Shown: positions 11,158-38,150 of the stretch, one piece after another
Position numbering within the stretch: the stretch's first letter is position 1
How the letters are laid out: each line of letters begins with the position of its first letter
NCBI GenBank assembly: GCA_016744435.1
Contig: JADGEJ010000034.1
Coordinates: 1 to 38,150, forward strand
DNA: 38,150 nt
DNA from: Lentibacter sp.
Lineage (GTDB): Bacteria > Pseudomonadota > Alphaproteobacteria > Rhodobacterales > Rhodobacteraceae
Direction of reading: 5' to 3'
The notes under the pieces: generated by a model
The model's input: the letters and a program-made list of their open reading frames with translations, nothing else
Told to the model about the DNA's origin: nothing
Databases searched by the model: none
Position numbers and translations under genes: made by a program

Positions 11158-11160
11158 GCC

Positions 11161-22049: not shown

Positions 22050-22058
22050 ATTCTGTCC

Positions 22059-22640: not shown

Positions 22641-22691
22641 CGTGGTAATCTCCACTGTCGTTTCATCCCTATAGTAACCGAATCAAATTAT

Positions 22692-22740: not shown

Positions 22741-22776
22741 CATCAGAATCATTAAACATGGATAGGAGATTCCGCT

Positions 22777-24069
22777 GTGAGTATGACTGAAGCCCTAAAA
22801 AAACGCCGTGCTGATGCTGTCGCAGTTGGCGTTGCAACTCGCGGCATATACGCTGTTAAGGCTGAAAACGCCGAATTGTGGGACGCGGACGGCAAGCGTT
22901 ATATAGACTTTGCCGCCGGCATCGCGGTGAACAACACCGGACATCGCCACCCTAAAGTGATGCAAGCGGTTGCCGATCAATCGCAAGCTTTCACCCACAC
23001 ATGTTTCCATGTCGCCCCTTACGAAAGCTACATCGCGCTGGCAGAACGCCTGAACAGCGCGACACCTGGAGGCTTCTCCAAAAAAACAATGCTCGCAACA
23101 ACTGGCGCGGAAGCCGTTGAAAATGCTGTCAAAATGGCGCGCGCGCATACAGGGCGCTCCGGGGTGATCGCCTTCTCAGGTGCGTTTCACGGGCGCACGC
23201 TTCTGGGCATGGCGCTTTGTGGCAAGGTTAACCCCTACAAAAAAGAATTTGGTGCGATGCCTGCCGAAGTTATGCACGCGCCCTTCCCGAATGAGTTCCA
23301 CGGCGTCAGCGTTGCCGACAGCCTGAATGTTCTGGAAAACATGCTGCGCTCCTCGATTGATCCTGAGCGCGTGGCTGCCATCATCGTTGAGCCGGTGCAG
23401 GGCGAAGGCGGGTTTGTAACGGCTCCGCCTGAATTCCTTCAAGCCTTGCGCAAGATTTGCGACACTCACGGGATCATGCTGATTGCCGACGAAGTGCAAG
23501 CTGGCATGGCGCGTACTGGCAAGCTGTTCGCGTTTGAGCACTCCGGCGTAGCCGCCGATCTCGTTTGCATGGCCAAGGGTCTGGCTGGCGGCTTCCCGCT
23601 GTCGGCCGTTACAGGGCGCGCCGAAGTTGTTGATGCCGCCCCAACGGGAGGTATCGGCGGCACATACGCAGGTAATCCGCTGGCAGTTTCTGCGGCCAAT
23701 GCCGTGCTTGAGATCATCGAGGAAGAGGGCCTATGCGCGCGTGCTGTTGAGATCGGCGATATGATTAAAGCCCGCCTGAACGACATTGCATCGCGCCAAG
23801 GCATGGAAGCCATCGGCGAGGTGCGCGGCCCTGGTGCGATGGTCGCGTTTGAGATGGTCACGGACCGCGAAACCAATGCGCCCGATGTGGCTGTTACCCA
23901 AGCAATTGTGGCCGAAGCCGAGGCTCGCGGCCTTATCATTCTGCCTTGCGGCACTCGTGGCAATGCGCTGCGCTTGCTACCACCTCTTACCACTCCGCTT
24001 GCACAAGTCGAAGAAGCCCTCAATATTCTTGAGGCGTCGATTGAAGCCGCTATTAATAAAGGAGCCTGA
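22777..24069 (+). CDS. gabT: 4-aminobutyrate / 5-aminovalerate aminotransferase
   Basis: A 430-residue class III PLP aminotransferase, moving an omega-amino group to 2-oxoglutarate. Key segments: GTG-start MSMTEALKKRRADAV, the PLP phosphate region ATTGAEAVENAVKMAR, GRTLLGMAL, LIADEVQAGMARTGKLFA, and CMAKGLAGGFP with the Schiff-base Lys267 at the same position as in other GabT proteins. GabT and DavT are close relatives; the adjoining gcdH and CoA-transferase favour 5-aminovalerate -> glutarate semialdehyde, though GABA may also be used. AGGAG is eight bases before the GTG at 22777; an ATG two codons later is an alternative. gcdH follows after three bases. Confidence 0.92.
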   Translation: MSMTEALKKRRADAVAVGVATRGIYAVKAENAELWDADGKRYIDFAAGIAVNNTGHRHPKVMQAVADQSQAFTHTCFHVAPYESYIALAERLNSATPGGFSKKTMLATTGAEAVENAVKMARAHTGRSGVIAFSGAFHGRTLLGMALCGKVNPYKKEFGAMPAEVMHAPFPNEFHGVSVADSLNVLENMLRSSIDPERVAAIIVEPVQGEGGFVTAPPEFLQALRKICDTHGIMLIADEVQAGMARTGKLFAFEHSGVAADLVCMAKGLAGGFPLSAVTGRAEVVDAAPTGGIGGTYAGNPLAVSAANAVLEIIEEEGLCARAVEIGDMIKARLNDIASRQGMEAIGEVRGPGAMVAFEMVTDRETNAPDVAVTQAIVAEAEARGLIILPCGTRGNALRLLPPLTTPLAQVEEALNILEASIEAAINKGA

Positions 24070-24072
24070 GAC

Positions 24073-25287
24073 ATGGCCAACACACTCTCCCCCCAAAGCC
24101 GCCCAGAGCTGTCATCATTCAACTGGGAAGATGCGTTCTTGCTCGACAGCCAATTGGCCGATGACGAGCGTATGATCCGCGACAGTGCCTTTGCCTATGC
24201 GCAGGAAAAATTGCAACCTCGTATCACGGAGGCATTTGCCAAAGAGCAAACCGACCCCGCGATTTTTGCCGAAATGGGCGAAATGGGCTTGCTGGGAACA
24301 ACCATCCCCGAGGAGTACGGCGGGCTTGGTGCCAACTACGTAAGCTACGGTTTGGTAGCGCGCGAAGTTGAGCGCGTTGACAGTGGCTACCGCTCAATGA
24401 TGTCAGTGCAAAGCTCGCTGGTGATGTACCCAATCTATGCCTACGGCAGTGAAGAGCAGCGAATGAAATACCTGCCCGGTCTGGCGGCCGGCACGCTGAT
24501 CGGCTGTTTTGGCCTGACAGAACCTGACGCCGGATCTGATCCGGGGAGCATGAAGACCACCGCGAAAAAAGTTGACGGCGGCTATGTGCTGAACGGCGCA
24601 AAAATGTGGATTTCCAACAGCCCGATTGCTGATGTCTTCGTGGTTTGGGCGAAGTCTGACGCCCACGGCGGTAAGATCAGAGGCTTTGTGCTGGAAAAAG
24701 GCACCAAGGGCCTAAGCGCACCAAAAGTCGAAGGGAAAATGTCACTTCGCGCGTCGATCACTGGTGAAATTGTGATGACTGATGTTGAAGTCAGCGATGA
24801 GGCACTTCTACCGAATGTTGAAGGGTTGAAAGGCCCGTTTGGCTGTTTGAACCGCGCGCGCTATGGCATTGCTTGGGGCGCGATGGGCGCGGCCGAAGCG
24901 TGCTGGCATGGCGCACGTCAATATGGCTTGGATCGCAAACAGTTCAACAAGCCGCTGGCGCAAACCCAGTTGTTCCAGTTGAAACTGGCGAATATGCAGA
25001 CCGAGATCACCCTTGGCTTGCAAGCCGCATTGCGCGTCGGGCGCCTGATGGACGAAGCAAATGCTGCACCCGAAATGATCAGCATGATCAAGCGTAACAA
25101 TTGCGGCAAGGCGCTGGAAGTTGCCCGCCATGCCCGCGACATGCACGGCGGCAATGGCATTAGCCTGGATTTTCACGTGATCCGTCACATGGTGAACCTT
25201 GAAACAGTGAACACCTATGAAGGCACTCATGATGTGCATGCACTGATTTTGGGGCGCGCACAGACTGGCCTACAGGCGTTCTTCTAA
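24073..25287 (+). CDS. gcdH: Glutaryl-CoA dehydrogenase
   Basis: FAD enzyme that oxidises and decarboxylates glutaryl-CoA to crotonyl-CoA. The 404-residue protein has the acyl-CoA dehydrogenase fold with the GCDH-specific features: [13 protein letters not shown] at the N-terminus, [52 protein letters not shown] and the catalytic base in [10 protein letters not shown] (Glu383). This combination distinguishes it from generic acyl-CoA dehydrogenases. It is the second gene after gabT, three bases apart, and is followed by a terminator-like hairpin before the aldehyde dehydrogenase. Electrons would go to ETF, encoded elsewhere. Confidence 0.95.
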
Positions 25288-25307
25288 ACCTGTTGCAAAA
25301 CAGGCTC

Positions 25308-25350: not shown

Positions 25351-25376
25351 TAAATTCAAATACCAAAGGAGTGACC

Positions 25377-26807
25377 ATGAAACTGAACCTTATTTCTGGT
25401 GAGTGGCTGGCTGGACCCGATCATGTGTCAAACCTAAACCCTGCCGATACTTCTGATGTGATTGGCCTCTATACACGGGCCTCTGTGGAGCAGGTTGACC
25501 TCGCGGTTTGCGCGGCAAATTCGGCTAGCTCAGCTTGGGCGAAAGCCAGTCCGCAAGTGCGCTCGGACTTGCTGGAAAGCGTGGCGCAGGCGTTATTTGC
25601 ACGAAAAGATGAGCTGGGCCGCATTCTGGCGCGCGAAGAAGGGAAAACGCTCGCTGAAGCCGTCGGCGAGACCATGCGCGCAGCGCAGATATTCCGGTTC
25701 TTCGCGGGCGAAGCGATCCGCGTTGCAGGGGATGCGATTGCATCGGTGCGCCCTGATGTCGACGTCAATGTGATCAGACAGGCCGCTGGGGTTGTTGGCT
25801 TGATCACCCCATGGAATTTCCCGATCGCGATTCCGGCGTGGAAAATCGCGCCTGCATTGGCTTATGGCAACTCAGTGGTGTTCAAGCCTGCCGATCTGAC
25901 CCCCGGCTCGGCGCATCTTCTGGCCGAGATCATCCATCAAGCCGGATGCCCTTCCGGGGTGTTCAATTTGGTGATGGGCCGAGGCTCGGTAGTTGGCGAT
26001 GCGATTGTTGGCCACCCATTGGTTGATGCGGTATCCTTCACCGGATCAGCCCCTGTTGGCCGCGCAATGGCAGTGCAGGCGGCGCAAGGCATGAAAAAAG
26101 TGCAGCTCGAAATGGGCGGCAAGAACCCAATGGTGATTCTGGATGATGCCGATCTTGATATTGCAGTTCCAGCGGTTTTGAACGGCGCGTTTTACTCCAC
26201 AGGTCAGCGCTGCACTGCATCCTCCCGGATCATTGTGCAGGCGGGTGTCCATGACGCATTCGTGGCGCGGCTGGCGGCAGAAACCAAGGCGCTGAAAATC
26301 GGCAACCCGCTGGATGCGTCGGTTCAGGTTGGGCCTGTGGTTTCTGAAAAGCAGCTGATGAACAACTTAGATTACGTTGAAATCGCGCGTGCCGAGGGTG
26401 CAGACGTGATCGGTGGCGAACGCTTGAACCGCGAGACTGAGGGCTATTTTCAAGCGCCTGCTTTATTCGTGGGCGCCACCAACCAGATGCGCAGCAGCCG
26501 CGAGGAAATCTTTGGGCCTTGCGCGTCGATTATCAAAGTCGGAGATTTTGACGAGGCGCTATCGGTTGCGAACGACACTGAGTTTGGACTGTCGGCCGGC
26601 ATATGCACCGCCAGTTTGAAACATGCTCGTGCGTTCAGGCAGGAGGCACAGGCGGGGATGGTGATGGTCAACCTTCCAACCGCTGGCGTAGATTACCATG
26701 TGCCATTCGGCGGCACAAAAGGCTCATCAATCGGATCACGCGAGCAAGGACGCTATGCGGCTGAGTTCTACACAACAGTGAAAACTGCCTATAGTTTTGC
26801 GGGATAA
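25377..26807 (+). CDS. NAD(P)+-dependent aldehyde dehydrogenase (semialdehyde type)
   Basis: A 476-residue aldehyde dehydrogenase: PWNFPIAIPAWKIAPAL and KPADLTPGS form the cofactor pocket, QLEMGGKNPM holds the general-base Glu, and GQRCTASSR the nucleophile Cys279. The C-terminus (PFGGTKGSS then SREQGRYAAEFYTTVKT) is of the kind seen in the ycbD-like alpha-ketoglutarate semialdehyde dehydrogenases rather than classical GabD. In this context the natural job is oxidation of glutarate semialdehyde to glutarate (a DavD role), or succinate semialdehyde; a 2-oxoglutarate semialdehyde role is also possible. AAAGGAG ends six bases before the ATG at 25377; a GTG at 25371 overlaps that site and was rejected. 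Confidence 0.88.
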   Translation: MKLNLISGEWLAGPDHVSNLNPADTSDVIGLYTRASVEQVDLAVCAANSASSAWAKASPQVRSDLLESVAQALFARKDELGRILAREEGKTLAEAVGETMRAAQIFRFFAGEAIRVAGDAIASVRPDVDVNVIRQAAGVVGLITPWNFPIAIPAWKIAPALAYGNSVVFKPADLTPGSAHLLAEIIHQAGCPSGVFNLVMGRGSVVGDAIVGHPLVDAVSFTGSAPVGRAMAVQAAQGMKKVQLEMGGKNPMVILDDADLDIAVPAVLNGAFYSTGQRCTASSRIIVQAGVHDAFVARLAAETKALKIGNPLDASVQVGPVVSEKQLMNNLDYVEIARAEGADVIGGERLNRETEGYFQAPALFVGATNQMRSSREEIFGPCASIIKVGDFDEALSVANDTEFGLSAGICTASLKHARAFRQEAQAGMVMVNLPTAGVDYHVPFGGTKGSSIGSREQGRYAAEFYTTVKTAYSFAG

Positions 26808-26879
26808 GCCGCCGCACGACCAGCAAGTTATTGCAGTTCTACAGCAAAGCCTCGTTTGGCTTTGGTCTTACCGCAAGGA

Positions 26880-26922
26880 GCTGCCCCTTGATAACCACTC
26901 ATAGGGTTATACTAGGGGCAGC
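26880..26922. other. Large imperfect inverted repeat between convergent genes
   Basis: GCTGCCCC (26880-26887) and the following ATAACC (26891-26896) pair with GGTTAT (26905-26910) and GGGGCAGC (26915-26922), leaving a small asymmetric bulge between the two stem parts. The right position for a shared terminator of the aldehyde dehydrogenase and Rieske genes, but there is no T run on either side, so a protein site or a Rho-independent variant remains possible. Confidence 0.6.
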
Positions 26923-26935
26923 GTCGGTATGAGAC

Positions 26936-28090
26936 TCAAGCTGTCAAACGCCCTTCAAGCGCATCGTGAATTGCCTTGGTTCCAAGGTGTAGGCCGATCT
27001 CATAACGGCCAAACAAAAATTCGGTGTTTGCCCCCGTGCTCAGACCTTTCTGGGTGTTCTCACCAATCTCGAAATCCTCATTAAAGACAGTGCGGATCAC
27101 ATCGTAGTTCTTTTCCCAATAACGCTCGGCTTTTTCAGTCTTGGGTGCTTCCGGGACCAGCATCATGCATTTGAAAATGCAGGTGTCCACGCCCGTCGGA
27201 ATGACTGTGTGGATGTAAACATGATCCGTCATCACCTGCACATAATTGCAAGGGAAAATATAGTTCTGCGTCATGAAGTAGGGGCGAGGATCCCAATCTT
27301 CCGGCGCTTTGTCCTTTAGCTCAACCACAGTCGGCAGCGGCACGGAATGGCGCACATGCGGGTAATTGTTAGTCCAGACGCTTTGGTTATCAAGGTAGGC
27401 GGCACAAGCCGTATGCTCATGTGCTCCACAGAAATGGTAGGATTCTTGGAAGCCCTCAAGTGCGAGATGCCAGTTCATCTTTCGGTCAAGAGACCATGCT
27501 TTAAACACTGTGTGGTTCTCTAGGCCCAGCCCACTAAGTTGCTCGGCCATTGGTGCGATCCATGCATCGATATCTAGCGGCTCATCGTCAGCCGACGGGC
27601 GCACCCAGATCAGGCCAAACCGCTCGAACGCGGGCAGCTCAACCAGCCCCAGCGCCTTTTTGTCGATGTCGCCAAAACCTGCGGCTTGTGGCAATCCGCG
27701 CAGGTTTCCGTTCAGGTCGTATGTCCACTTGTGGTAAGGGCAAGAGAACGTCTTGGATTTCCCACATTCACTTTCGGTCAAACGCGCGCCGCGGTGGCGG
27801 CAAACGTTCATGAAGGCTTTGACCACGCCATCGTTGTTACGCGTGATCAGGATAGGAACGCCCAACTCATCATTCGTGAAGTAAGAGGCAGGCTCGGGCA
27901 ATTGCTCGGAATGCCCCATAATGACTGGAAATTTGCGAAACAGAATTTCGACTTCTTTGGCCAGCACATCTGGATCAGTATAGGTGGTCACCGGGTTTCG
28001 CATCAACTCGGGCTGCATGTCGGTGGTGCCATCCTCTGTGTGCTGCAGAATGGCTTTGACGATGTCTTTTTCTTCGACACTAATGTTCAT
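26936..28090 (-). CDS. Rieske non-haem iron oxygenase, alpha subunit
   Basis: A 384-residue ring-hydroxylating or demethylating oxygenase alpha subunit. The Rieske [2Fe-2S] ligands are Cys97, His99 (CRHRGARL) and Cys117, His120 (CPYHKW). The catalytic domain has the canonical NWHLALEGFQESYHFCGAH pattern, with the bridging Glu216 and iron ligands His219 and His224; the third ligand is probably Asp339 (NEDFEIGEN). No reductase or ferredoxin gene is adjacent, so electrons come from elsewhere. The substrate is unknown: aromatic, betaine-like and N-heterocyclic compounds are all used by relatives. The ATG at 28090 has GGGAG upstream. It is the last gene of a ligase-flavoenzyme-oxygenase unit, four bases after the preceding gene. 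Confidence 0.88.
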   Translation of the reverse strand: MNISVEEKDIVKAILQHTEDGTTDMQPELMRNPVTTYTDPDVLAKEVEILFRKFPVIMGHSEQLPEPASYFTNDELGVPILITRNNDGVVKAFMNVCRHRGARLTESECGKSKTFSCPYHKWTYDLNGNLRGLPQAAGFGDIDKKALGLVELPAFERFGLIWVRPSADDEPLDIDAWIAPMAEQLSGLGLENHTVFKAWSLDRKMNWHLALEGFQESYHFCGAHEHTACAAYLDNQSVWTNNYPHVRHSVPLPTVVELKDKAPEDWDPRPYFMTQNYIFPCNYVQVMTDHVYIHTVIPTGVDTCIFKCMMLVPEAPKTEKAERYWEKNYDVIRTVFNEDFEIGENTQKGLSTGANTEFLFGRYEIGLHLGTKAIHDALEGRLTA

Positions 28091-28094
28091 AATC

Positions 28095-29072
28095 TTATAC
28101 TCCCTCTTCATTTTTTGGTGCCGGTAGATATCGGCTGCCCTTACACTGGTCAGCCACGGCTTGACGGTACTCTTGCCTTAATGTGGCGACAACCTCCGCG
28201 ATGCTTTCAGATTTAGTGATACCACCGACGCCCTGCCCCGCGCTCCAGACATGCTTCCATGCCTTTGAGCCGGCGTGCATGTCACCTGAAAAGTCAAACT
28301 TTACCGCTTTGGCCATGTCCTCGATCGGAATTCCCGCGGCTTCAACGCTTGCGCGCATCCAGTTGCCCAACGCGCCGGTTATGGCGCGTGAAGCGATCAG
28401 GTCTTCCATCGCGCTTTCCCAGACCATCTCGCGGTAAGCTTGCGGAATCATGGTTTCGCGCGCGGCCAGAAATCGTGTGCCAAGATAAGCAAAATCAACG
28501 CCAAGGTTTTCAACGGCTCGAATAGCGCGGCCCGTCCCGATGCCACCCCCTACGATCAATGGTCCGTCAAAAAAACCGCGGACCTCTTCGATAAACGGCA
28601 GCATCGCATATTCACCCGTATGGCCGCCCGCACCGGCACAGACCAACACGAGGCCATCCGCCCCTTTGTCGAGCGCTTTGCGCGCGAACCTAGGAGACGT
28701 CACATCAGCAAAGACCAAGCCGCCGTACTGGTGCACTTGCTCAGTGACACGGTGCGGCCCCCCCAAAGCAGTGATCACCAAATTGGGTTGAAACTCCTCT
28801 ACCAGCGCGATTTCATCGTCAAAGCGGCCATAGCTGGAATGCGTGATCATGTTCATGGCCCAAGGTGCGTCATCCGGTCCGACACGGCTGGTGATCTGGG
28901 TTAGCCAGCTGCGCAAATCATCAGTGGTGCGGGCGTTAGGGCCGGGAAACGAGCCCATGACGCCCGCTTTGCAAGCCGCTACCACCGTCTCGGGATTTGA
29001 AACAAGAAACATCGGCGCAGCGATGGCGGGCAACACCATCGCTGATTTAAGTTCATCTACTTTAGTGTTCAT
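28095..29072 (-). CDS. Nitronate monooxygenase-like flavin oxidoreductase
   Basis: A 325-residue FMN-dependent TIM-barrel protein of the NMO / 2-nitropropane dioxygenase family. VLPAIAAPMFLVSNPETV, FADVTSPRFARKAL, GADGLVLVCAGAGGHTG, VGGGIGTGRAI and FAYLGTRFLA are the standard family segments, and GQGVGGI lies near the C-terminus. Many family members are not true nitronate oxidases; some act as NADH:quinone reductases or as enoyl reductases. Here it lies between the acyl-CoA ligase (23 bases upstream) and the Rieske oxygenase (4 bases downstream), so a role in the same catabolic route is likely, but the reaction is unknown. Confidence 0.85.
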   Translation of the reverse strand: MNTKVDELKSAMVLPAIAAPMFLVSNPETVVAACKAGVMGSFPGPNARTTDDLRSWLTQITSRVGPDDAPWAMNMITHSSYGRFDDEIALVEEFQPNLVITALGGPHRVTEQVHQYGGLVFADVTSPRFARKALDKGADGLVLVCAGAGGHTGEYAMLPFIEEVRGFFDGPLIVGGGIGTGRAIRAVENLGVDFAYLGTRFLAARETMIPQAYREMVWESAMEDLIASRAITGALGNWMRASVEAAGIPIEDMAKAVKFDFSGDMHAGSKAWKHVWSAGQGVGGITKSESIAEVVATLRQEYRQAVADQCKGSRYLPAPKNEEGV

Positions 29073-29095
29073 AGATCAGCCTTTCCGGGGCGAGT

Positions 29096-30565
29096 TCAGG
29101 CATCAGCCCGCAGACTATTTTGCAAAGACGTTCGGTCTACCTTGCCTGCCGGGGTCAGCGGCATTTCTGGCAAAATGATCACCTCTGCAGGCATTTTGTA
29201 GCCGATCAGATTGTCTTTGCAAAAAGACAATATACCGGCTTCATCCGCCGCCGTACGCAGCGTGACAAAGGCCACCGGAACTTCGCCTGAGCGAGAGTGA
29301 ATACGGCTGACCACACAGGAAGCTGATATGGCGGGGTGGGCCAACAGCAACTCTTCGAGCTCACGTGGAAAAACGTTGAAGCCACTGACAAATATCACAT
29401 TCTTCTTGCGATCCGTAATGGTAAGGAACCCTTCTGCATCTAGCGTGCCAATGTCGCCCGTGTAGACAAACCCGTGTCTTAAAGCGATCGCGGTTTCCTC
29501 TGGGCTGCAGGTGTATCCAGCCATCATATGTGGCCCCTTAATGCGGATTTCTCCTGCTTCGCCAGTGCCAAGCACGGTGTCTCCCGTCTCAAGATCAACG
29601 ATTTCGACCGTAGTATCTGGCACCGGCTTGCCCGCAGAGCCTAGCAGCACGCCATGCGCCTCAGTATTGATCGTGATCGGGGCGATCTCGGTCATCCCGT
29701 AGCCTTCGTAAATCTTGAGGCCAGTCGCCGCTTCCCAGCGTTTGTGGACATCCAGCGGGAAAGGTGCCCCGCCACCGGGGCAGATACGAAGCTCTGGAAA
29801 CCGAGCGTCGGCAAATTTGGCCGAAGACATAACGGCCTGATATATTGCAGGCGGCCCGCCACCAAAAATAGTCACGCCTTCACTTGCCAGCAGGTCCACG
29901 ATCAGATCCGGCTGGAACCGCTCGGGTATGACAACAGAACCTGCCCGAATAATCGGATTGGCCAGCCCCATCAGAAAGCCGTAAATATGAGTAAAGGGCG
30001 CAACAGGCAGCCAGACCTCATCCGCCCGCGTTCGCCAGCCCCAATCGCCTCGTTCCATCGTTGCGATGACGGCGGCGTTTGTGTGCGGAACCTGCTTTGG
30101 CAAACCGGTTGTCCCACCTGAATACATGATGGCGGCAATGTCATCAGCCGTACTGGGGTCGGTCAACTCGGCGAGTTCGGCAGGTTTGAGCAAGCTCTCA
30201 ACCAGCGCATCGTTGAGGATGCGCGTGCGGCCTGTTGAGTGCTCATGGTCCGACAGGGTAACCACGGCACCCAGATCATCGAGCAGCTTGGAAATTGTTG
30301 CAGGCGGGTTGCCATGGTTGATCAACGCAGGCGTTCCACCGGCAAACAAAGTCGCAAAATAGGCGATCAGAAAAGCCGTAGAGTTGGGTAGGATCAACGC
30401 AACAGAGCGCCCTTGCACATCCGCGCGCAGCTCATCGGCAAGCGACTGAATAGCACCCGCCGCCTGACCATAAGTCAGCGTGCCCGTGCTCCCTTTACAG
30501 TATATCGCATCAGGGTTGCGTTCTGCCGCAACTTTGAAGGCGCTTGCGATGGTCTGCGCCTCCAT
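29096..30565 (-). CDS. AMP-dependent acyl-CoA synthetase/ligase
   Basis: An ANL-superfamily ligase of 489 residues, activating a carboxylic acid as acyl-AMP and then as the CoA thioester. The ATP P-loop is MYSGGTTGLPKQVPHT, followed by APFTHIYGF, the adenine motif YEGYGMTEIAP, VYTGDIG with the ribose-binding Asp, the hinge DRKKNVIFVSGFNVFPREL and the catalytic Lys in LTPAGKVDR. It most resembles medium-chain or aromatic acid ligases; the substrate is unknown. First gene of the minus-strand unit ending with the Rieske gene. A TTG at 30598 would add 11 residues and has an AGAGAG tract upstream; the ATG at 30565 is preferred only for codon type, so the start is uncertain. Confidence 0.85.
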   Translation of the reverse strand: MEAQTIASAFKVAAERNPDAIYCKGSTGTLTYGQAAGAIQSLADELRADVQGRSVALILPNSTAFLIAYFATLFAGGTPALINHGNPPATISKLLDDLGAVVTLSDHEHSTGRTRILNDALVESLLKPAELAELTDPSTADDIAAIMYSGGTTGLPKQVPHTNAAVIATMERGDWGWRTRADEVWLPVAPFTHIYGFLMGLANPIIRAGSVVIPERFQPDLIVDLLASEGVTIFGGGPPAIYQAVMSSAKFADARFPELRICPGGGAPFPLDVHKRWEAATGLKIYEGYGMTEIAPITINTEAHGVLLGSAGKPVPDTTVEIVDLETGDTVLGTGEAGEIRIKGPHMMAGYTCSPEETAIALRHGFVYTGDIGTLDAEGFLTITDRKKNVIFVSGFNVFPRELEELLLAHPAISASCVVSRIHSRSGEVPVAFVTLRTAADEAGILSFCKDNLIGYKMPAEVIILPEMPLTPAGKVDRTSLQNSLRADA

Positions 30566-30634
30566 TTTCCAACCGTCAGGAGCGTGTTTCTCAGTCAAAG
30601 CTTAGTCTCTCTCTTCTGTCGCTGTATCTGTGGC

Positions 30635-30694
30635 CGATCAAATTCAAGTTGATCGTGCCAACCATACTATAACGCGGCTGGTTGGCATGTCATC
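30635..30694 (-). promoter_or_regulatory. Predicted promoter with two operator palindromes
   Basis: On the minus strand GATGAC (30689-30694), 17 bases, TATAGT (30666-30671) form a plausible promoter for the ligase-NMO-Rieske unit. Two perfect inverted repeats overlap it: TGCCAACCA (30656-30664) with TGGTTGGCA (30679-30687), bracketing the -10, and CGATCAA (30635-30641) with TTGATCG (30649-30655) just downstream of the expected start site. Regulators are not encoded inside the window next to it. Confidence 0.6.
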
Positions 30695-30780
30695 CAAACT
30701 GTAGATGCCACGTTAAACATGCACTCAACAGCACGTCTGTGCCATCCTGAAACACTTTTGAAGAACTTGCAAAACCCACG

Positions 30781-30808
30781 TAAAAAGGTGCCCCGCTTTC
30801 GGGACACC
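30781..30808 (-). terminator. Intrinsic terminator of the hyu-liv operon
   Basis: On the minus strand GGTGTCCCG and CGGGGCACC (arms 30800-30808 and 30787-30795, one G-U pair) close on a four-base loop and are followed by TTTTTA. It lies 23 bases past the livK stop, ending that transcript before the ligase promoter region begins. Confidence 0.88.
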
Positions 30809-30831
30809 AAATTCACTTACGACTTGAATAT

Positions 30832-32001
30832 CTACTTCAACAATACATCCAGCGGCACAGGCTCGCTTATGGTGAAGCTGCCAATCACCCCAGGCTTCCC
30901 ACCGGTGATTTCAACGATCTGCATTTCAGCGGTGTTCTGGTGGTGGATTGTGTCTGAGAAACTACGGGGGCCAAATGTTGTTGGCTCGTTGTCCATTTTC
31001 TCAAGCTCGGCGGTTACCGCGGACGCTTCAACTGTTCCGGCACGCTCAACAGCCTTGGCCCAGAGATCAATCAGCAGATAGCCCGGATATACGTAAGTGC
31101 TTGATGGGCCAGCGCCTGTTGCCGCTTCATACGCATCGCGGAACTCATTTACGGCAGGGCGCGTGTCGTCACCATAGATAGAGCCCTGAACCGGAACGAT
31201 GAAGTTCGTCAGATCAGGCGTTGCATCCAGCCAGTAAGAACCATCTACAGCAGATCCGTTCAGGATTGTTGAATTGATACCAGCCGCCCGAATCTGACGC
31301 ACAGCAGACGCCGCGCCCGGAATGTATGAGCAAAGCATGATCACATCAGGCTCTTTATCAAGGCTTTTGATCCGCGTGATTTGGCTGGCAATAGAAGCGT
31401 CGCCGTTCAGGAAGGTATCACGGCCAACAATCTCGCCGCCTGCTTTGGGGAACATCCAGTCGTAACCCGTACAGATGCCTTTGTTGTACTCAATCGTTGT
31501 ATCAAGCAGCACATAGCCCGTCGTGGCTTTCCGTTCTTTGACAGCCCACTCAGCCACTGTTGCGCCTTGAACCGCCGCAAGGACAGATGCGGAGAAGCTG
31601 TTGGGGCCAACGCCTTGAATGCCCGCTTTGATGTCTTCAGCACAGAGGAAGAAAGAGTTCAGCCCTTCACCTTCAGCCGCCAAAGCAGCCGGTGCGCCAA
31701 AGTCATAGTCGCAAGACACGATCAGCATGTCTGCACCTTCGTCAACCAGTTGCAGGCCCGCGCTTGCAGACTGTGCTTGGTCGCTCTTGGTGTCGGCTTC
31801 GATCCATTTGATCTGCTTTCCCAAGAGGCCCCCGGCAGCGTTGATCTCGTCAATCCGGATGCGCGCAGCTTCAACAGCCGGGCCATCATAGGCTTGAACC
31901 CAGCCAGACTTGGCGATTGCAAAGCCGATAGTGATGTCATCGGCCATAGCAGCCGTGCCAAGGCTCAAGGCGAGCGTTGTCGCAGTTAAGAAATGTTTCA
32001 T
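30832..32001 (-). CDS. Branched-chain amino acid-type ABC transporter, substrate-binding protein
   Basis: A 389-residue periplasmic binding protein with a clear signal peptide (MKHFLTATTLALSLGTAAMA, cleavage before DDITIG). ITIGFAIAKSGWVQAYDGPAVEAARIRI opens lobe 1 as in LivJ/LivK proteins, and KQIKWIEADTKSDQAQSASA is the usual second segment. Family members bind amino acids, amides, urea or aromatic acids, so the ligand here is open. It is the last gene of the operon, 39 bases after the livM-type permease, with GGAG before the ATG and an intrinsic terminator behind it. The linked hyuBA genes suggest an amide, hydantoin or lactam ligand. Confidence 0.9.
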   Translation of the reverse strand: MKHFLTATTLALSLGTAAMADDITIGFAIAKSGWVQAYDGPAVEAARIRIDEINAAGGLLGKQIKWIEADTKSDQAQSASAGLQLVDEGADMLIVSCDYDFGAPAALAAEGEGLNSFFLCAEDIKAGIQGVGPNSFSASVLAAVQGATVAEWAVKERKATTGYVLLDTTIEYNKGICTGYDWMFPKAGGEIVGRDTFLNGDASIASQITRIKSLDKEPDVIMLCSYIPGAASAVRQIRAAGINSTILNGSAVDGSYWLDATPDLTNFIVPVQGSIYGDDTRPAVNEFRDAYEAATGAGPSSTYVYPGYLLIDLWAKAVERAGTVEASAVTAELEKMDNEPTTFGPRSFSDTIHHQNTAEMQIVEITGGKPGVIGSFTISEPVPLDVLLK

Positions 32002-32040
32002 GGTAATCTCCTCTGTTGGCAGGTTTATATTGTTTTCCCG

Positions 32041-33069
32041 TCAGCGCCCGCCAATGCGCAAACGTAGTTCACGCCCACCGGTTAGCCCGGCGGGGCGTAG
32101 AATGAGGACAAGGATCATAATGACCCCTATAAGGATTTCTTGAGCGCCGGTTGGCAGCGCCAGCGTAGTTTCGCCAAACTCCACACCTCGCTCCATGCGC
32201 ACGAGACTCTCGATCATGATCGAAAGAACCAGAACGCCTGTTACCGCGCCGGTCAGGCTGCCTATTCCGCCCACAACAAGCATGGCGAGCGTGATGAACG
32301 TCACGCCAAGGTAGAAGCTCGAAGGGTTCAGCACGCCCAAAGAATGGCCAAACAAGGCCCCTGCGACACCGGTGAAAAAGGCAGAGACCACCAGGGAAAT
32401 CAGGCGATGGCGGTACATGTTAATCCCGCTGGCTGAGGCCGCAACTTCGTCTTCGCGGCTGGCGCGCAAAGCAAGCCCGGAGGCAGAGCTCGCATACCAA
32501 GCCGCTGCGAGAACCGTGACAGAGGCCCAGCCAAACGTCACCCACTGGTCTGCGTAGCGCGCGAGGCCAACCACTGATGATGTGGCCCCGGTCACGCCTT
32601 CCCAGCTGGAGTAAACCGTGTAGACAATCGCGAGAAAGGCGAATGTCGCGATAGAGGCCGCGATCCCCGTGAGCCGCAAAATGGCAGCACCTGAAACCAG
32701 CGCAACAAAAGCCGCCAGCAAACCAGAGACAACAGCCGCCGGAAGCACGTGCCACTCGGCATTCGCCAGAAAGGGCCAGAGGTCAGGCAAAAACAGCCCC
32801 TTCATCTGCGGCTTTAGCGTTAGCCAAGCAGAGCAATATGCCCCGATCGCCATATAGCCCGCGTGCCCGAAACTCACGACACCGGAGTTTCCGACAAAAA
32901 CCCAGAGACCCACAACAAATGTGACACGGATCATGGTTTGCGCCGCCATGCGCGCCAATGATTTGTCGCCCAGCATTGTTACCAGAAGAGTGAAAACCAG
33001 CAGAATGAGGATCAACAGAACTGGTGTTGACCATGCGCTCAGGCGTTTTTGTTTATGTGTTTGTGCCAT
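32041..33069 (-). CDS. Branched-chain amino acid-type ABC transporter permease (LivM-like)
   Basis: A 342-residue inner-membrane permease with about ten hydrophobic segments. GNSGVVSFGHAGYMAIGAYCSAWL near residue 60 is the LivM signature. SREDEVAASASGINMYRHRLISL in the central cytoplasmic loop is the EAA-like contact with the ATPase, and GGIGSLTGAVTGVLVL lies near the C-terminus, ending in LILRPAGLTGGREL. It pairs with the LivH-like permease three bases upstream to form the membrane channel. Confidence 0.92.
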   Translation of the reverse strand: MAQTHKQKRLSAWSTPVLLILILLVFTLLVTMLGDKSLARMAAQTMIRVTFVVGLWVFVGNSGVVSFGHAGYMAIGAYCSAWLTLKPQMKGLFLPDLWPFLANAEWHVLPAAVVSGLLAAFVALVSGAAILRLTGIAASIATFAFLAIVYTVYSSWEGVTGATSSVVGLARYADQWVTFGWASVTVLAAAWYASSASGLALRASREDEVAASASGINMYRHRLISLVVSAFFTGVAGALFGHSLGVLNPSSFYLGVTFITLAMLVVGGIGSLTGAVTGVLVLSIMIESLVRMERGVEFGETTLALPTGAQEILIGVIMILVLILRPAGLTGGRELRLRIGGR

Positions 33070-33072
33070 GCT

Positions 33073-33987
33073 CTAGACCCTCGGTTTTGCAGAGTTTGAG
33101 GCAAACAACCCTTGGGGCCGCAGCAACAGGCTGACGATGACCAGCGTATAAAGGAAGGCATCTCGGAAGGGGCGCGCTTCGAGCGGAAGGAACCCCTGAA
33201 GGATCACTGATGCCGCACCAATAAGGAAGCCCGCAGCAACAGCACCCGGCAAGCTGCCCAACCCTCCGATGACCGTCGCAATAAAAGCAACCAGCATGAT
33301 TTGCCCGCCCATGCGAATGTCAGCAACGCCAGTCTGTGTGGCCATGATCATGGCAACGGCAGCGGCCAAGGCGCCAGACAAGGCAAAAGCGCCTGTGATC
33401 ACCACATTGGCCTTCACGCCCAGCAACCGCGCCATTGTGAAGTTCTCAGCAGCGGCGCGCATTTCTAGCCCAATTTTGGTCTTCTTCAGAAGCAGAGCCA
33501 ACGTCACCACGACAGCCAAAGTCGTCAGGATGACAATAATTTGCAGCAAGGGAACCGACGCTCCGACAATGGAGACCGGTGTGTTCAGCTCGGGCCAGAG
33601 GCTGATCGCCTTTGGGCGGCTGCCGTAAACGGCAAGCAGCGAGTTCTGAATCACAAACCCGAGTGCGAACGAAGAAATCATCATTGCAACAGGCGTGGCA
33701 TTGCGCATGTGCCGGAAGACAAAAAACTCAGACGCAACCGCAACCGCCGCACCGATCGAAAGAAGTATCGGGATCAGCACAATAGCGGGCGCTTTGCCCA
33801 GAAACATCACGGCCACGGCGTCGGTAGAAGGCACGATCAGCGCAAAAACGCAAAAGGCGATGTATTCGCCATGTGCGAAGTTCACGAGGTTCATCACCCC
33901 AAAAATCAGCGCAATGCCAAGGGCCGCCATGGCGTAGATGCCACCAAGGCTCATGGCGTCAAAGAAGAGCTGTGGAATTGCGTTCAT
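33073..33987 (-). CDS. Branched-chain amino acid-type ABC transporter permease (LivH-like)
   Basis: A 304-residue inner-membrane permease. GGIYAMAALGIALIFGVMNLVNFAHGEY at the N-terminus is the LivH signature (two overlapping parts: IYAMAALGIALIFG and MNLVNFAHGE). TKIGLEMRAAAENFTMARLLG is the cytoplasmic coupling loop, and FIATVIGGLGSLPGAVAAGFL follows. The C-terminal LLLRPQGLFAS is typical. Its ATG overlaps the stop of the livF-type gene by four bases. Confidence 0.92.
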   Translation of the reverse strand: MNAIPQLFFDAMSLGGIYAMAALGIALIFGVMNLVNFAHGEYIAFCVFALIVPSTDAVAVMFLGKAPAIVLIPILLSIGAAVAVASEFFVFRHMRNATPVAMMISSFALGFVIQNSLLAVYGSRPKAISLWPELNTPVSIVGASVPLLQIIVILTTLAVVVTLALLLKKTKIGLEMRAAAENFTMARLLGVKANVVITGAFALSGALAAAVAMIMATQTGVADIRMGGQIMLVAFIATVIGGLGSLPGAVAAGFLIGAASVILQGFLPLEARPFRDAFLYTLVIVSLLLRPQGLFASNSAKPRV

Positions 33988-34718
33988 GAGGATGCCTCAG
34001 CTTTATCTGTTCCAAAATAGGCTTCGTTGAGCACGTCGCTTTCTGCGAACTTCTTGGCGTCACCATCACCAACAACAGAACCGCCGCGCAGCAACACCAT
34101 GCGTCCGCCAACACGCGCAGCACGTGCAGAGCTTTGCTCAACAATAATCAGCGTCAGACCGCGGTCTTTCTGCAAATTTACGAGCGTTTCATAGACTTGA
34201 TCGACAATATTGGGGGCCAGCCCCAAAGATGGCTCATCCACCAGCATCAGCTTGGGGTTGGTCATCAGACCCCGCCCGATTGCCAACATCTGTTGCTGCC
34301 CGCCAGAAAGCGCGCCAGCATTGGCATGACGGCGCTCTCCCAAAATGGCAAAGTTTTCGTAGACTTCTTCGATGTCATTTTCGACAGCAGACTTGTCGCG
34401 CCGGATACCCGTGCCAACACGCAGGTTTTCCTCAACCGTCAATGTTCCAAAAATGTCGCGGCCCTCAGGCACCATTGTCAGGCCAAGCCGCGCAATCGCT
34501 TCGGGCGTGCGGCCTGTCAGCAAATCACCGTCCACTTCGATCCGGCCATGGGAGGTTGCAACAGCCCCGCAGATAGCCTTGAGCAATGATGACTTTCCAG
34601 CGCCGTTTGGCCCCGAGATGAACAGGCGCTCACCTTCCTCAATGGTCAGCGTCACATCCGTAAGGGCTGGGACTTTGCCGTAGCGAACCGCAACATCGTA
34701 AACACCAAGCTTAGACAT
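33984..34718 (-). CDS. Branched-chain amino acid-type ABC transporter ATP-binding protein (LivF-like)
   Basis: A 244-residue ATPase. Walker A is GPNGAGKSSL (about residue 36), the Q-loop region includes VPEGRDIFGTLTVEENL, the signature motif is LSGGQQQML, and Walker B is LMLVDEPSLGLAP. PEGR-x-IF-x-LTVEENL is characteristic of LivF rather than LivG. It follows livG with a one-base overlap and precedes livH with a four-base overlap, giving tight translational coupling. Confidence 0.93.
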   Translation of the reverse strand: MSKLGVYDVAVRYGKVPALTDVTLTIEEGERLFISGPNGAGKSSLLKAICGAVATSHGRIEVDGDLLTGRTPEAIARLGLTMVPEGRDIFGTLTVEENLRVGTGIRRDKSAVENDIEEVYENFAILGERRHANAGALSGGQQQMLAIGRGLMTNPKLMLVDEPSLGLAPNIVDQVYETLVNLQKDRGLTLIIVEQSSARAARVGGRMVLLRGGSVVGDGDAKKFAESDVLNEAYFGTDKAEASS

Positions 34719-35494
34719 TACGCGCCCTCCGTGTGTTCTGTATGTTCTGCGCCAAGGTAAGCATCACGCACAGCTTGGCTGCTAAGGATCGCGTCCTTGT
34801 CGCCTTCTTCGATGATCGTTCCCGCGTCCAAAACATAGACATGGTGAGAGACAGACAAGACCAGCCCGACATTATGCTCAATGAGCAAAACACCTGTGCC
34901 TAATTCTTCGGAAACGCGTTTGATGATGCTTGCCAGATCGCTGGCTTCCGCCTCGGACATGCCTGCGGCTGGTTCATCAAGTAATAAAAAGTCTGGGCTA
35001 AACATCAGCGCGCGGGCAATGCCAACGCGCCGTTCATCCGTATAGGGCAGCCCCGCCGCCGGCAGTTCCGCCAAGTGAGATGAGCCCATCCACGCAAGCA
35101 GGCGCATGGCCTCAGTCTCAGATGCCCGGCGCGAATGGCCAAGGCCAACACCCGTAACGGCCAGATTATCTAGCACATCAAGTCCGGTAAACAAACGCCC
35201 GGCCTGAAACGTTCGGGCAATACCAGCACGGCGCAAAGCATGCGGCGACCAGTCTCCGACACTCGTGCCGTTCAGTTTTACAGTCCCCGTTGTGGGGGCC
35301 TGAAAACCGGTCAGCACATTAACCATCGTGGTTTTTCCCGCGCCATTCGGCCCGATCAGCCCATGCACGGCACCCGGCGTGATAGTCAGTGTAACATCCG
35401 TCAGGGCCTTGAACCCGCCGAACGCCACTGTCACCCCGGAGGCCGCAAGGGAGAGAGCTGATGTGTTTGATGTCTGGCTCACTGGTGTTCCCAA
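34718..35494 (-). CDS. Branched-chain amino acid-type ABC transporter ATP-binding protein (LivG-like)
   Basis: A 258-residue ATPase. Walker A is GPNGAGKTTM, followed by VLTGFQAPTTGTV and IARTFQAGRLFTGLDVLDNL (the LivG-type Q-loop). The signature region departs from the usual LSGGQ: the sequence reads LPYTDERRVGIARAL, so the canonical LSGGxQ is replaced by LPYTDER, a variant seen in some LivG proteins. Walker B is FLLLDEPAAGMS. It forms the ATPase pair with the LivF-like protein. It starts six bases after the hyuA stop, tying the transporter to the hydrolase. Confidence 0.9.
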   Translation of the reverse strand: MGTPVSQTSNTSALSLAASGVTVAFGGFKALTDVTLTITPGAVHGLIGPNGAGKTTMVNVLTGFQAPTTGTVKLNGTSVGDWSPHALRRAGIARTFQAGRLFTGLDVLDNLAVTGVGLGHSRRASETEAMRLLAWMGSSHLAELPAAGLPYTDERRVGIARALMFSPDFLLLDEPAAGMSEAEASDLASIIKRVSEELGTGVLLIEHNVGLVLSVSHHVYVLDAGTIIEEGDKDAILSSQAVRDAYLGAEHTEHTEGA

Positions 35495-35500
35495 CGCCCC

Positions 35501-37585
35501 TTAGCTGGCTGCATCAGACGTCAGAACATAGACGCCACTTTCATGCAGGTTGACGGTCCACTCCGGCTCAACAACGATGGTCGTTGTGACCTCTTCGATC
35601 ACGGCAGGGCCTTTAAGCGTGTCCCCTGCCCCCATTTTTCCGCCGTCATAGACAGGCGTGTCCTTGGTGGCACCATCCTTGGAGAACACCATCGGGCGGC
35701 TGCCCTTGAGCGCGCTTTCGGCGCCGCTTCCAGCCGCGATTGTCATGCGATCAGGCTTGTCAACGTGGCCGGCAATCGTGCTCTCGACGTTCACAACCTC
35801 GATCGCGCTGCTCGGCTCGTCGTAAGTGTAGAGTTCTTTGTGACGGGCGTGGAAGGCGTCTTTGAGGTCTTGCAAACGCTCTTCCGTGACCTCGAAAGGC
35901 TCGATCTCGACAGTACATTCGTGAACCTGACCGACATAACGCATGTCTAGGCTCCGCCTGATCGATATCTTGTCTTCGGCAAAGCCATCGCCTGCCAAAT
36001 CTTCGCGGCCATTGGTTTCCAGACCGCTGAACAACGTGTCGAGCTTGGCCGCAGCCTCCGCGCCTTCAACGCGGATCGGTGCGGGCGCCATATAGTTGTA
36101 CTTTACGTCAGAGATAATCTGGCCATAGGCACAAAGACCCGACGCCAACTTGGAAATCAGAACCTTGCTGATCCCCATCTCACGGGCCAAGGCCGTGATA
36201 TGCGCACCGGTCGCACCGCCAGCCCCCATCAAGACAAAATCACGCGGATCATAACCACGTTCAACCGAAACGCGACGGATCGCATTCACCATGTTGTTGT
36301 TCACGATGGTGAACATGCCATGCGCGGCCTGCTCAACGGTGATCCCGAGAGGATCCGCCAACTTGCCTTTGATTGCAGAGCGCGCTTTGTCAGCATCCAG
36401 CGGCAGACGTCCGCCCACCAAGCCATCAGCGTTCAGATACCCCATGACAAGGTTCGCATCCGTGGTTGTCGGGTTTTCACCACCTTGGCTATAACAAGCT
36501 GGGCCTGGCTCTGAGCCCGCAGACTGCGGCCCCATCTGGATCAGCCCCATAGAGTCGATCCAGCCGATCGAGCCACCGCCGGCGCCAAGTGTCTCTACCT
36601 GAATCATCGGGATACCGATGCGGTAGCGCAAGAAGTCGATGTTCTTGTTGACGTTCGCATGACCGTCACGGGTGAGTGTGATGTCAAAGCTGGTGCCACC
36701 CATGTCGCAAGTGATGATGTTCTTGTCACCCCAAGGGGCAGCCACATCAAGCGCGGCTTGCGGCGCAGAGGCGGGACCAGAGTTGATCGCGTAAACCGAC
36801 TGGTCGCTGACAACCTTGCCCAAGGCCAAACCACCGTTCGACTGGAAATAACGGACCGGGTTTTTTGAGCCCAAGTCACGGAAGTAAGCGTCGATGCCTT
36901 CGACGTAACGCTGAAGGATAGGCGCGAGATAGGCGTTCACAATCGCCGTGGATGTCCGCGTATATTCCCGCACTTGCGGGTACAAAACCGAGCCAACCGT
37001 GAGGCGCACATCCGGCATCATTTCACGCACGATCTCGGCGGCGCGCATCTCGTGCTCCTGATGCAGGACTGACCAGACAAAGCTGATCGCAACGCTTTCA
37101 ACGCCCTCAGCGATGAAATAACGGCACGCCTCGCGCACGTCTTCTTCAACCATCGGCGTTTTGACATCACCTGTGGAGATCACACGCTCTGTTACGGGGC
37201 GGCGCAGGTGGCGCGGCACCAGCATTGTCGCGGGTGGGTAGTCGGGATCATAGCGATAACCGTCTTCCTTGTGACCCAAACGAATCTCGATTGAATCCTC
37301 ATGGCCGCGTGTCGCTATCAAGCCCGTTTTGGCGCCCGTGTGGGTGATCAAGGCGTTCAAGCCAACGGTCGTACCGTTGATGCAAAGGTCTGAGTTTGAA
37401 ACGATTTTCTCCGCCGTAAGGCCCGTTTCTTCCGTGATCAGCGCCAGACCGTTTTTGATGGCCTTGGTGGGTTCTGTAGGCGTCGAAAGCACCTTGAAAA
37501 TCTGCAAACTGCCTGACTTGTCTGCCAGAATGAAGTCGGTGAATGTGCCGCCGGCATCAATGCCCAGACGATATTGAGTACGCAT
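35501..37585 (-). CDS. hyuA: Hydantoinase/oxoprolinase family protein, subunit A
   Basis: A 694-residue subunit of an ATP-dependent amidohydrolase or carboxylase (families of hydantoinase A, 5-oxoprolinase, acetone/acetophenone carboxylase and caprolactamase). It has the actin-like ATPase fold: YRLGIDAGGTFTDFIL at the N-terminus, INGTTVGLNALI, NSGPASAPQAAL, IITCDMGGTSFDI (second phosphate motif), ETLGAGGGSIGWID, GSEPGPACYSQGG and TTTDANLVMGYL. These enzymes phosphorylate a ring amide, or a carboxylate or enolate, to drive cleavage or carboxylation. The B subunit gene lies 23 bases upstream on the same strand. The substrate cannot be read from sequence; a lactam, hydantoin or N-methylhydantoin is plausible. 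Confidence 0.9.
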   Translation of the reverse strand: MRTQYRLGIDAGGTFTDFILADKSGSLQIFKVLSTPTEPTKAIKNGLALITEETGLTAEKIVSNSDLCINGTTVGLNALITHTGAKTGLIATRGHEDSIEIRLGHKEDGYRYDPDYPPATMLVPRHLRRPVTERVISTGDVKTPMVEEDVREACRYFIAEGVESVAISFVWSVLHQEHEMRAAEIVREMMPDVRLTVGSVLYPQVREYTRTSTAIVNAYLAPILQRYVEGIDAYFRDLGSKNPVRYFQSNGGLALGKVVSDQSVYAINSGPASAPQAALDVAAPWGDKNIITCDMGGTSFDITLTRDGHANVNKNIDFLRYRIGIPMIQVETLGAGGGSIGWIDSMGLIQMGPQSAGSEPGPACYSQGGENPTTTDANLVMGYLNADGLVGGRLPLDADKARSAIKGKLADPLGITVEQAAHGMFTIVNNNMVNAIRRVSVERGYDPRDFVLMGAGGATGAHITALAREMGISKVLISKLASGLCAYGQIISDVKYNYMAPAPIRVEGAEAAAKLDTLFSGLETNGREDLAGDGFAEDKISIRRSLDMRYVGQVHECTVEIEPFEVTEERLQDLKDAFHARHKELYTYDEPSSAIEVVNVESTIAGHVDKPDRMTIAAGSGAESALKGSRPMVFSKDGATKDTPVYDGGKMGAGDTLKGPAVIEEVTTTIVVEPEWTVNLHESGVYVLTSDAAS

Positions 37586-37608
37586 AGTTCTGTCCTTTTT
37601 GTCTGAGC

Positions 37609-38150
37609 TTAAGCTGCGCGGGTCTTGGCAGTGGCTGCTTCGTCAATGGCAAGTGTTTCGGGGTCTGCAATGATCACACCGTAATCAAGCTTGGCACCTT
37701 CGATGCTGACCAGCCCGTTGCGGATGTCATCAACAACTTTCAGCGGATCACGCTCGAACGGGTTGCCGAAACCACCACCACCGGGGTTCATATTGGCCGC
37801 GATCTCACCGGGCTTGATTGTCTCAATGACATTTTCCTTGATAATTTCAGTGCTGCCATTTCGGGTGATCTCTAGGCGACCAACTTTCTTCTCGACCATG
37901 GCCGATTTTGCACCAGCCGCCCCCATCGCCGGAATGCGGCGGCCTTCGCCAAAGGTGATCATGGTCATATCAGAGTCCAGCGGCTCCACAGCCCAGCGCG
38001 TGCCAGACCCGCCACGGTGTTTGCCCGCGCCGCCACTGTCTTCCATCAGACCATACTCGTGGATGATGATCGGGTAGGAATGCTCCAGCATTTCGATATC
38101 ACCAGAGGTCAACGCACCAAAACAGCACTCCGGGCCGCAAGCGTGCCACC
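37609..38150 (-). CDS. hyuB: Hydantoinase/oxoprolinase family protein, subunit B (C-terminal part)
   Basis: The reading frame is open to the window edge, so the gene is cut at its 5' side; about 180 C-terminal residues are visible. Family segments include CGPECCFGALTSGDIEM, YPIIIHEYGLMEDSGGAGKHRGG (as YPIIIHEYG and GGAGKHRGGSGTRW), and NPGGGGFGNPFERDP, the diagnostic glycine-rich end of HyuB proteins. A TTG at 38112 is inside the gene and is not the start. HyuB forms a complex with HyuA. With hyuA and the liv genes it makes a continuous co-directional run on the minus strand. Confidence 0.92.
   Translation of the reverse strand, partial: WHACGPECCFGALTSGDIEMLEHSYPIIIHEYGLMEDSGGAGKHRGGSGTRWAVEPLDSDMTMITFGEGRRIPAMGAAGAKSAMVEKKVGRLEITRNGSTEIIKENVIETIKPGEIAANMNPGGGGFGNPFERDPLKVVDDIRNGLVSIEGAKLDYGVIIADPETLAIDEAATAKTRAA

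Follow-up and report, generated by a model that had tools for sequence, protein, structure and literature searches.

What substrate is served by a run of ten minus-strand genes in Lentibacter sp. (Rhodobacteraceae) that begins with an apparent ATP-dependent hydrolase, continues with a branched-chain amino acid-type (Liv) ATP-binding cassette (ABC) importer, and ends with a CoA ligase, an NMO-type flavoprotein, and a Rieske oxygenase? The genes lie in a window of 38,150 bases; this is all of contig C65 in a genome assembly of 3.25 Mb and 68 contigs. In the names used here, their order is capB-capA-livG-livF-livH-livM-livK, then CoA ligase-NMO-Rieske. A preliminary description of this DNA had given the places, families, and order of all ten open reading frames (ORFs) correctly and had treated them as a single uncharacterized catabolic island, with an N-heterocycle, lactam, or hydantoin as the best guess at its substrate. 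We consider it rather probable that the first seven genes form a lactam-use unit combining import with ATP-dependent hydrolysis of a lactam, most likely δ-valerolactam (2-piperidone), with caprolactam possible.

The two hydrolase genes fall into Pfam families of the hydantoinase/oxoprolinase type, and CapA passed the cut-off of the NCBIfam equivalog model for the caprolactamase alpha subunit (Table 1). Among 14 control genomes, some match to this model was present in six and none exceeded the cut-off. The closest solved structure was the caprolactamase of Pseudomonas jessenii (6YRA, 834 bits), followed by an N-methylhydantoinase at 413 bits, and Asp11 and Asp295 of CapA are kept relative to 6YRA. 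An acetophenone-type carboxylase was considered and rejected, as the scores stayed far below the cut-offs of the models ApcA (217.2 versus 1250), ApcC (335.8 versus 1500), and ApcD (34.4 versus 1500). The window holds only the C-terminal 179 amino acids of CapB, since the gene runs off the contig. Its remaining part lies at the end of contig C45, and 132 of 133 bases match where the two contigs overlap. The window piece of this split protein scored 261.4 on its own against a cut-off of 1000. Its orthologue in locus L007, to which the C45 piece is 95.7% identical over 441 residues, exceeded the same cut-off with 1097.7. Using this orthologue, we mapped CapB on 6YRA with the residue lists of PMC8453981. 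All four metal ligands (D41, H99, D102, and H124), both vicinal cysteines, and 12 of the 13 listed pocket residues, including Tyr136, are kept in this mapping, with Ile368 replaced by Cys, and five motifs around the catalytic and pocket positions are identical in the organism's own C45 piece. Judged by its sequence, the enzyme labeled HyuA is thus a member of the known caprolactamase family and not an unknown hydantoinase. The preliminary description was right to propose a ring-amide hydrolase and to list lactams among its substrates, and right that the partner gene hyuB is present; the enzyme is very probably not an acetophenone-type carboxylase, belongs to a family with a solved structure, and is encoded only in part in the window.

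The neighbors of capBA were surveyed in named genomes, where the best 80 of 296 CapA relatives were taken as loci and genes were counted by tblastn with identity limits for each gene. Full 10-kb flanks were available for 52 of the 80 loci, so the counts are lower bounds for presence within 10 kb. The closest CapA proteins, 88 to 89% identical, came from Aliiroseovarius, Shimia, Actibacterium, and Defluviimonas. CapB was found in 78 of the 80 loci, all five liv genes in 34, and at least two liv genes in 38; in 33, LivG starts on the same strand as CapA and no more than 400 bases behind it. L050, L056, and L058 have a more distant Liv set, which is on the opposite strand. When the family was searched with LivK, 13 of 295 genomes, including that of Lentibacter sp. 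itself, had a match at an E value up to 1e-100. Of the 12 other orthologues, nine adjoin CapA and CapB with the gene order unchanged, and three lie on contigs that end before their surroundings come into view. Given the family match of CapA and this conserved synteny, uptake and the first attack on the cyclic amide look coupled, as the preliminary description had supposed.

We rejected a conventional importer of branched-chain amino acids or urea because LivK missed the cut-offs of the NCBIfam LivJ/K (80.3 versus 477) and UrtA (47.4 versus 492.75) models. Its predicted structure has the Liv fold, with a predicted local distance difference test score (pLDDT) of 77.7 and 4gnr as the best match in the Protein Data Bank. 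We take the amino-acid anchors of the leucine-binding protein to be Ser79, Thr102, and Glu226, and 1usg carries S, T, and E at these positions. At the aligned positions, LivK has Tyr99, Glu122, and Ser250, which are invariant in all 10 aligned orthologues and kept in at least 95% of 47 sequences. A pocket without the clamp for carboxylate and ammonium would suit a neutral ring amide. LivK matched 3ip5 at 32 bits only, while the branched-chain-type binding protein of P. jessenii is 51% identical to 3IP5 (PMC6061476); on these scores, LivK is therefore of another subfamily than the P. jessenii protein.

A pathway that would fit downstream of the hydrolase is encoded at 20,940 to 26,807 and had been left outside the island as first drawn. 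A gene for an XRE-cupin regulator and one for a CaiB-type CoA-transferase lie divergent from gabT, a glutaryl-CoA dehydrogenase (GCDH) gene, and an aldehyde dehydrogenase gene. GabT exceeded the cut-off of one transaminase model (Table 1) and fell below several narrower γ-aminobutyrate (GABA) transaminase models (e.g., 619.3 versus 724), consistent with a GabT-type transaminase whose role with 5-aminovalerate is a prediction. The GCDH, which adjoins gabT, matched two named GCDH structures at 634 and 547 bits, and the first chain of another name and family followed at 242. No close second copy of GabT was found in the genome (the next is 39% identical). Apart from the window copy, which may thus be the sole intact one, the genome has a close GCDH match only in a broken fragment (C49:38334-38872, L221). 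Across the 80 capBA loci, gabT and the XRE-cupin gene were each found in 23, the aldehyde dehydrogenase in 19, GCDH (at least 60% identity over half its length) in 5, and the CoA-transferase in 4. Relative to capA, gabT varies in side and strand and occurs with or without liv, in five arrangements (6, 11, 3, 1, and 2 loci), and 17 loci have both gabT and liv. Genes resembling phosphate butyryltransferase and butyrate kinase, the latter over its cut-off, lie near gabT at L010:2365-3699 and L014:4985-6082; gabT was also present in 15 of the 17 loci with either gene, and the pair is possibly an alternative means of activating glutarate.

Based on these assignments, we propose that LivK would bind the lactam and LivFGHM import it, that CapA would activate it with ATP, and that CapB would hydrolyze the activated ring at its metal site to give 5-aminovalerate. 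This product would then be taken up by the neighboring set: GabT would remove the amino group, the aldehyde dehydrogenase would produce glutarate, the CaiB-type transferase would convert this to glutaryl-CoA, and GCDH would yield crotonyl-CoA.

A candidate for the regulator that the preliminary description expected upstream of position 38,150 was found on C45, where an AraC-family gene (L138:13577-14617; AraC_binding_2 and HTH_18) lies upstream of capB in divergent orientation. An AraC-type regulator is present in 71 of the 80 capBA loci, and OplR, the AraC-type regulator of the lactam operon of Pseudomonas putida, has been used as a valerolactam sensor (PMC11683335). By analogy with OplR, the Lentibacter protein probably senses the lactam, and the XRE-cupin regulator probably controls the gabT side. 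Upstream of the AraC gene, L138:11084-13407 on the same contig holds a second pair of a CaiB-type CoA-transferase and an acyl-CoA dehydrogenase, and no counterpart of this pair reached 60% identity in the 80 other capBA loci.

Uptake partners of capBA differ among the loci. CapA occurs without Liv, for example in L218 to L220; 12 of 80 loci have an allantoin-type permease, and 25 have a 5-oxoprolinase-like module (PxpA, biotin carboxylase), in three cases together with liv. Nine loci have none of the three. Two ORFs scanned as possible permeases (L047:4745-6256 and L029:5399-6934) gave no family match. On plasmids of Paracoccus seriniphilus (L173) and Azoarcus (L176), capBA is followed by the allantoin-type permease, a different uptake partner, and the P. 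seriniphilus locus has the N-methylproline demethylase gene hpbA upstream. L036, L021, and L174 (a Shinella plasmid) carry capBA with a PxpA/biotin carboxylase/carboxyltransferase module, some with a second HyuAB pair and a LysR gene, and appear as multi-lactamase islands.

The remaining three of the ten genes are best regarded separately, and the locus likely consists of two transcription units, judging from its sequence. Unit 1, capB-capA-livGFHMK, spans 30,832 to 38,150, and unit 2, CoA ligase-NMO-Rieske, spans 26,936 to 30,598, both on the minus strand with no other gene between them. The junctions from hyuB to livK had been described as 1 to 6 bases; we measured gaps of 23, 6, −1, −4, 3, and 39 bases from capB to livK, then 233 bases to the CoA ligase, and 23 and −17 within unit 2. 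Directly after livK, inside the 233-base gap, a hairpin of nine pairs, seven of them G-C, is followed by TTTTT. Under a strict definition, the minus strand of the whole window holds two such hairpins (at 30,808 after livK and at 17,956 behind groEL), compared with none on the plus strand and a total of one across 20 mononucleotide shuffles of the minus strand; a looser terminator scan of 22,000 to 38,150 gave 22 against 19.9 expected, which is not above chance. A promoter-like site lies ahead of the CoA ligase at 30,693 to 30,666, of a class only moderately above chance (14 versus 8.1 expected, standard deviation 3.0). Elsewhere in the window, 8,268 to 12,015 carries homoprotocatechuate-type meta-cleavage genes (HpaE over its cut-off, a glyoxalase-type dioxygenase, and an FAA hydrolase).

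The distribution of the cassette differs from that of capBA-liv. At a threshold of 40% identity, the 80 capBA loci contained none of the three cassette genes, and 27 to 30% matches to the ligase or the Rieske protein were seen in three. Unit 2 is therefore not co-conserved with capBA in these loci, an outcome that the preliminary description had itself named as one that would refute its island. Close Rieske relatives (61 to 87%) occur in eight other genomes of the 295 in the family, together with a 63% fragment in G327, and in one of 385 genomes of the class (64%); the remaining family matches are 31 to 35% identical. In all nine other genomes with a close full-length relative, an NMO gene is near the Rieske gene, and a related CoA ligase is also near in five (G352, G268, G142, G242, and G607, the last with its Rieske gene on the opposite strand). 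A CapA search of these nine and of G091, which has NMO and partial others, gave matches in 7 of the 10 genomes (G142 among them, only 77% complete), the best 34% identical. LivK-positive and Rieske-positive genomes of the family overlap only in the genome studied here, a weak observation alone, both genes being rare. Together, the missing synteny, the hairpin, and this non-overlap argue for a chance adjacency of the two units, and the single 11-kb island was rejected.

By family, the Rieske protein is GbcA/CntA-like and scored 123.6 against 670 on the NCBIfam model of GbcA (glycine betaine monooxygenase). The NMO protein is assigned at family level (Pfam NMO 80.4 versus a gathering score of 28; FabK equivalog 90.3 versus 453.1). 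No typical Rieske reductase was present by family among the three cassette genes, to which this look was confined; one question this raises is whether the Rieske protein receives its electrons from the FabK-like flavoprotein. Elsewhere, the cassette lies beside genes for GST, an iron alcohol dehydrogenase, a VanA-type Rieske protein, an EamA transporter, a dienelactone hydrolase, a NUDIX protein, or an FAD-binding oxygenase, and since these vary, no substrate could be read from its surroundings. In L139 and L167, NMO and Rieske are separated by a TetR-type gene. Steroid-degradation sets of CoA ligase, IpdC, and Rieske genes are a conceivable parallel.

Table 1. Features of the Lentibacter sp. 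window discussed in the text, with the evidence for each assignment
Feature	Position	Strand	Basis
capB, C-terminal part of caprolactamase beta	37609..38148	-	NF050157 matched at 399-575 of 577; remainder L138:14685-16118
capA, caprolactamase alpha	35501..37585	-	NF050156 1221.7 bits vs cut-off 1000; 6YRA chain A 834 bits
livG, ABC ATPase	34718..35494	-	ABC_tran; LivG model best, below cut-off (188.7 vs 362)
livF, ABC ATPase	33984..34718	-	ABC_tran; UrtE and LivF models best, both below cut-off
livH, permease	33073..33987	-	BPD_transp_2
livM, permease	32041..33069	-	BPD_transp_2
livK, binding protein, proposed lactam binder	30832..32001	-	Peripla_BP_6; amino-acid anchor positions replaced
Terminator-like hairpin, ends capBA-liv unit	30787..30808	-	Hairpin scan and shuffles
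CaiB-type CoA-transferase, succinate--glutarate type proposed	20940..22049	-	NF052585 517.6 vs 750
XRE-cupin regulator, divergent from gabT	22059..22655	-	HTH_3 and Cupin_2
gabT, omega-amino acid transaminase	22777..24069	+	TIGR00700 540 vs cut-off 506.65
Glutaryl-CoA dehydrogenase	24073..25287	+	634 bits Burkholderia GCDH, 547 human GCDH
Semialdehyde dehydrogenase, glutarate semialdehyde proposed	25371..26807	+	Aldedh; alpha-ketoglutaric semialdehyde DH model 533.3 vs 770
CoA ligase, separate cassette	29096..30598	-	Family match; 0/80 capBA loci
NMO/FabK-like flavoprotein, separate cassette	28095..29072	-	Family match; 0/80 capBA loci
Rieske oxygenase, GbcA/CntA-like, separate cassette	26936..28111	-	Family match; 0/80 capBA loci

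How firmly the lactam-use unit can be held depends on several findings that weigh against it. A set of at least two liv genes is absent from 42 of the 80 capBA loci, and the importer is therefore not obligatory for capBA. The fold neighbors of LivK include amino-acid, aromatic-acid, and urea binders, so the fold does not tell its ligand; the anchor comparison rests on about 20% identity and on presumed anchor residues, and 3hut, a putative branched-chain binder, apparently also has Ser at the third anchor position. On the C5 side, the sole NCBIfam GCDH model hit (Desulfo type) was below cut-off (217.7 versus 470), as were the CoA-transferase and the aldehyde dehydrogenase on their models (Table 1). 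None of the five loci with GCDH has a liv set. Among liv-bearing loci, a GCDH piece was seen only in L010, cut by the locus edge, so a direct link between liv and glutarate is confined to the window and L010; elsewhere the link runs through gabT. The ring size is likewise left unsettled by sequence because CapAB and OplBA, 80 to 86% alike, both act on caprolactam (PMC8453981), and OplBA serves valerolactam and caprolactam alike (PMC11879879).

The same machinery might have caprolactam as its main substrate, CapAB giving 6-aminohexanoate and GabT and the aldehyde dehydrogenase leading on to adipate semialdehyde and adipate. The best characterized relative hydrolyzes caprolactam, the CapB pocket is nearly identical to that of caprolactamase, and deletion of oplBA in an engineered P. 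putida stopped growth on caprolactam (PMC11879879). The adjacent acyl-CoA dehydrogenase, however, is a GCDH, which fits C5 and not C6, and the aminotransferase is GabT-like, with no assignment to the V. fluvialis-like type of P. jessenii. With GCDH next door, δ-valerolactam is the better guess, and we regard caprolactam as the main substrate as unlikely. A C4 lactam is disfavored because P. putida OplAB, strongly active on δ-valerolactam, showed only traces of activity on γ-butyrolactam (PMC11033972). Less likely than caprolactam as main substrate is an importer for an omega-amino acid (GABA, 5-aminovalerate) or another amide, with the lactam used by CapAB entering otherwise or forming in the cell. 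The frequency of gabT near capA (23 of 80), the existence of a Liv-type GABA receptor (3ip5), and the loci in which capBA lacks liv or has an allantoin-type permease would agree with this; yet LivK is without the ammonium and carboxylate anchors, matches 3ip5 poorly, and in the loci examined goes with capBA irrespective of gabT, which is missing from 21 of the 38 loci having at least two liv genes.

That all ten genes serve one pathway, the CoA ligase, NMO, and Rieske proteins tailoring the lactam product or preparing the substrate, appears very improbable: the genes are adjacent on one strand with none intervening, but the hairpin separates the units, the cassette is absent from the capBA loci, and its relatives sit beside varied genes in genomes with no CapA match closer than 34% and apart from LivK-positive genomes. 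We give slightly less credence still to an ATP-dependent hydantoinase, 5-oxoprolinase, or acetophenone-type carboxylase; the Pfam families are common to these enzymes and an N-methylhydantoinase structure was matched, but at about half the score of 6YRA, and the enzyme passed the caprolactamase cut-off, kept the caprolactamase pocket, and fell far short of the carboxylase models.

The lactam-use unit that we favor shares much with characterized systems. CapAB of P. jessenii GO3 is a two-subunit ATP-dependent lactamase whose catalytic and pocket residues are kept here, and its cluster likewise has an aminotransferase and a semialdehyde dehydrogenase nearby (PMC6061476). The window differs in its Liv importer after capA and the GCDH in the nearby series. 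Caprolactam induced four binding proteins in P. jessenii, including the one of branched-chain type; their genes lie on other contigs, and a role in uptake was only proposed (PMC6061476). By its published descriptions, OplBA/OplR of P. putida KT2440 resembles the present system as a lactamase for valerolactam and caprolactam use with an AraC-type regulator in the operon; the passages on this strain mention no Liv importer. Growth of the engineered P. putida on caprolactam and further C6 monomers was supported by PP_0411-4, an ABC transporter of the polyamine type (PMC11879879). Liv/HAAT importers for branched-chain amino acids and urea have the same five-gene architecture and fold, whereas the window set has a LivK below the LivJ/K and UrtA cut-offs, replaced amino-acid anchors, and a tie to capBA. 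The lysine route through 5-aminovalerate and glutarate (GabT/DavT type, GCDH) is matched by a transaminase, semialdehyde dehydrogenase, CoA-transferase, and GCDH within 6 kb; here these are near a lactamase and an importer, and the CoA-transferase and aldehyde dehydrogenase exceed no curated cut-off. What is already known comprises the enzyme with its mechanism, the control of a lactam operon by an AraC-type regulator, and the glutarate route, and the new element is a Liv-type importer tied to, and co-inherited with, the lactamase. Searches of open-licence papers in PubMed Central aimed at a Liv-type importer beside a lactamase listed none, and those on 2-piperidone and marine bacteria gave, by title or start of abstract, nothing relevant.

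These results re-label the recurrent Rhodobacterales sets annotated as a hydantoinase plus a branched-chain amino acid transporter as probable lactam-use genes. They also predict a Liv-type lactam importer that is directly open to a binding assay, and the importer-hydrolase pair may be useful for nylon-monomer work and for asking which lactams occur in nature. The widest form of the proposal, on which we are evenly divided, is that livGFHMK is a dedicated lactam ABC importer, belonging to a subfamily within the Liv/HAAT transporters that has lost amino-acid recognition and is co-inherited with caprolactamase. If so, free lactams, and δ-valerolactam above all, would be genuine nutrients of many Rhodobacterales, which would import them intact with high affinity and burn them via glutaryl-CoA.

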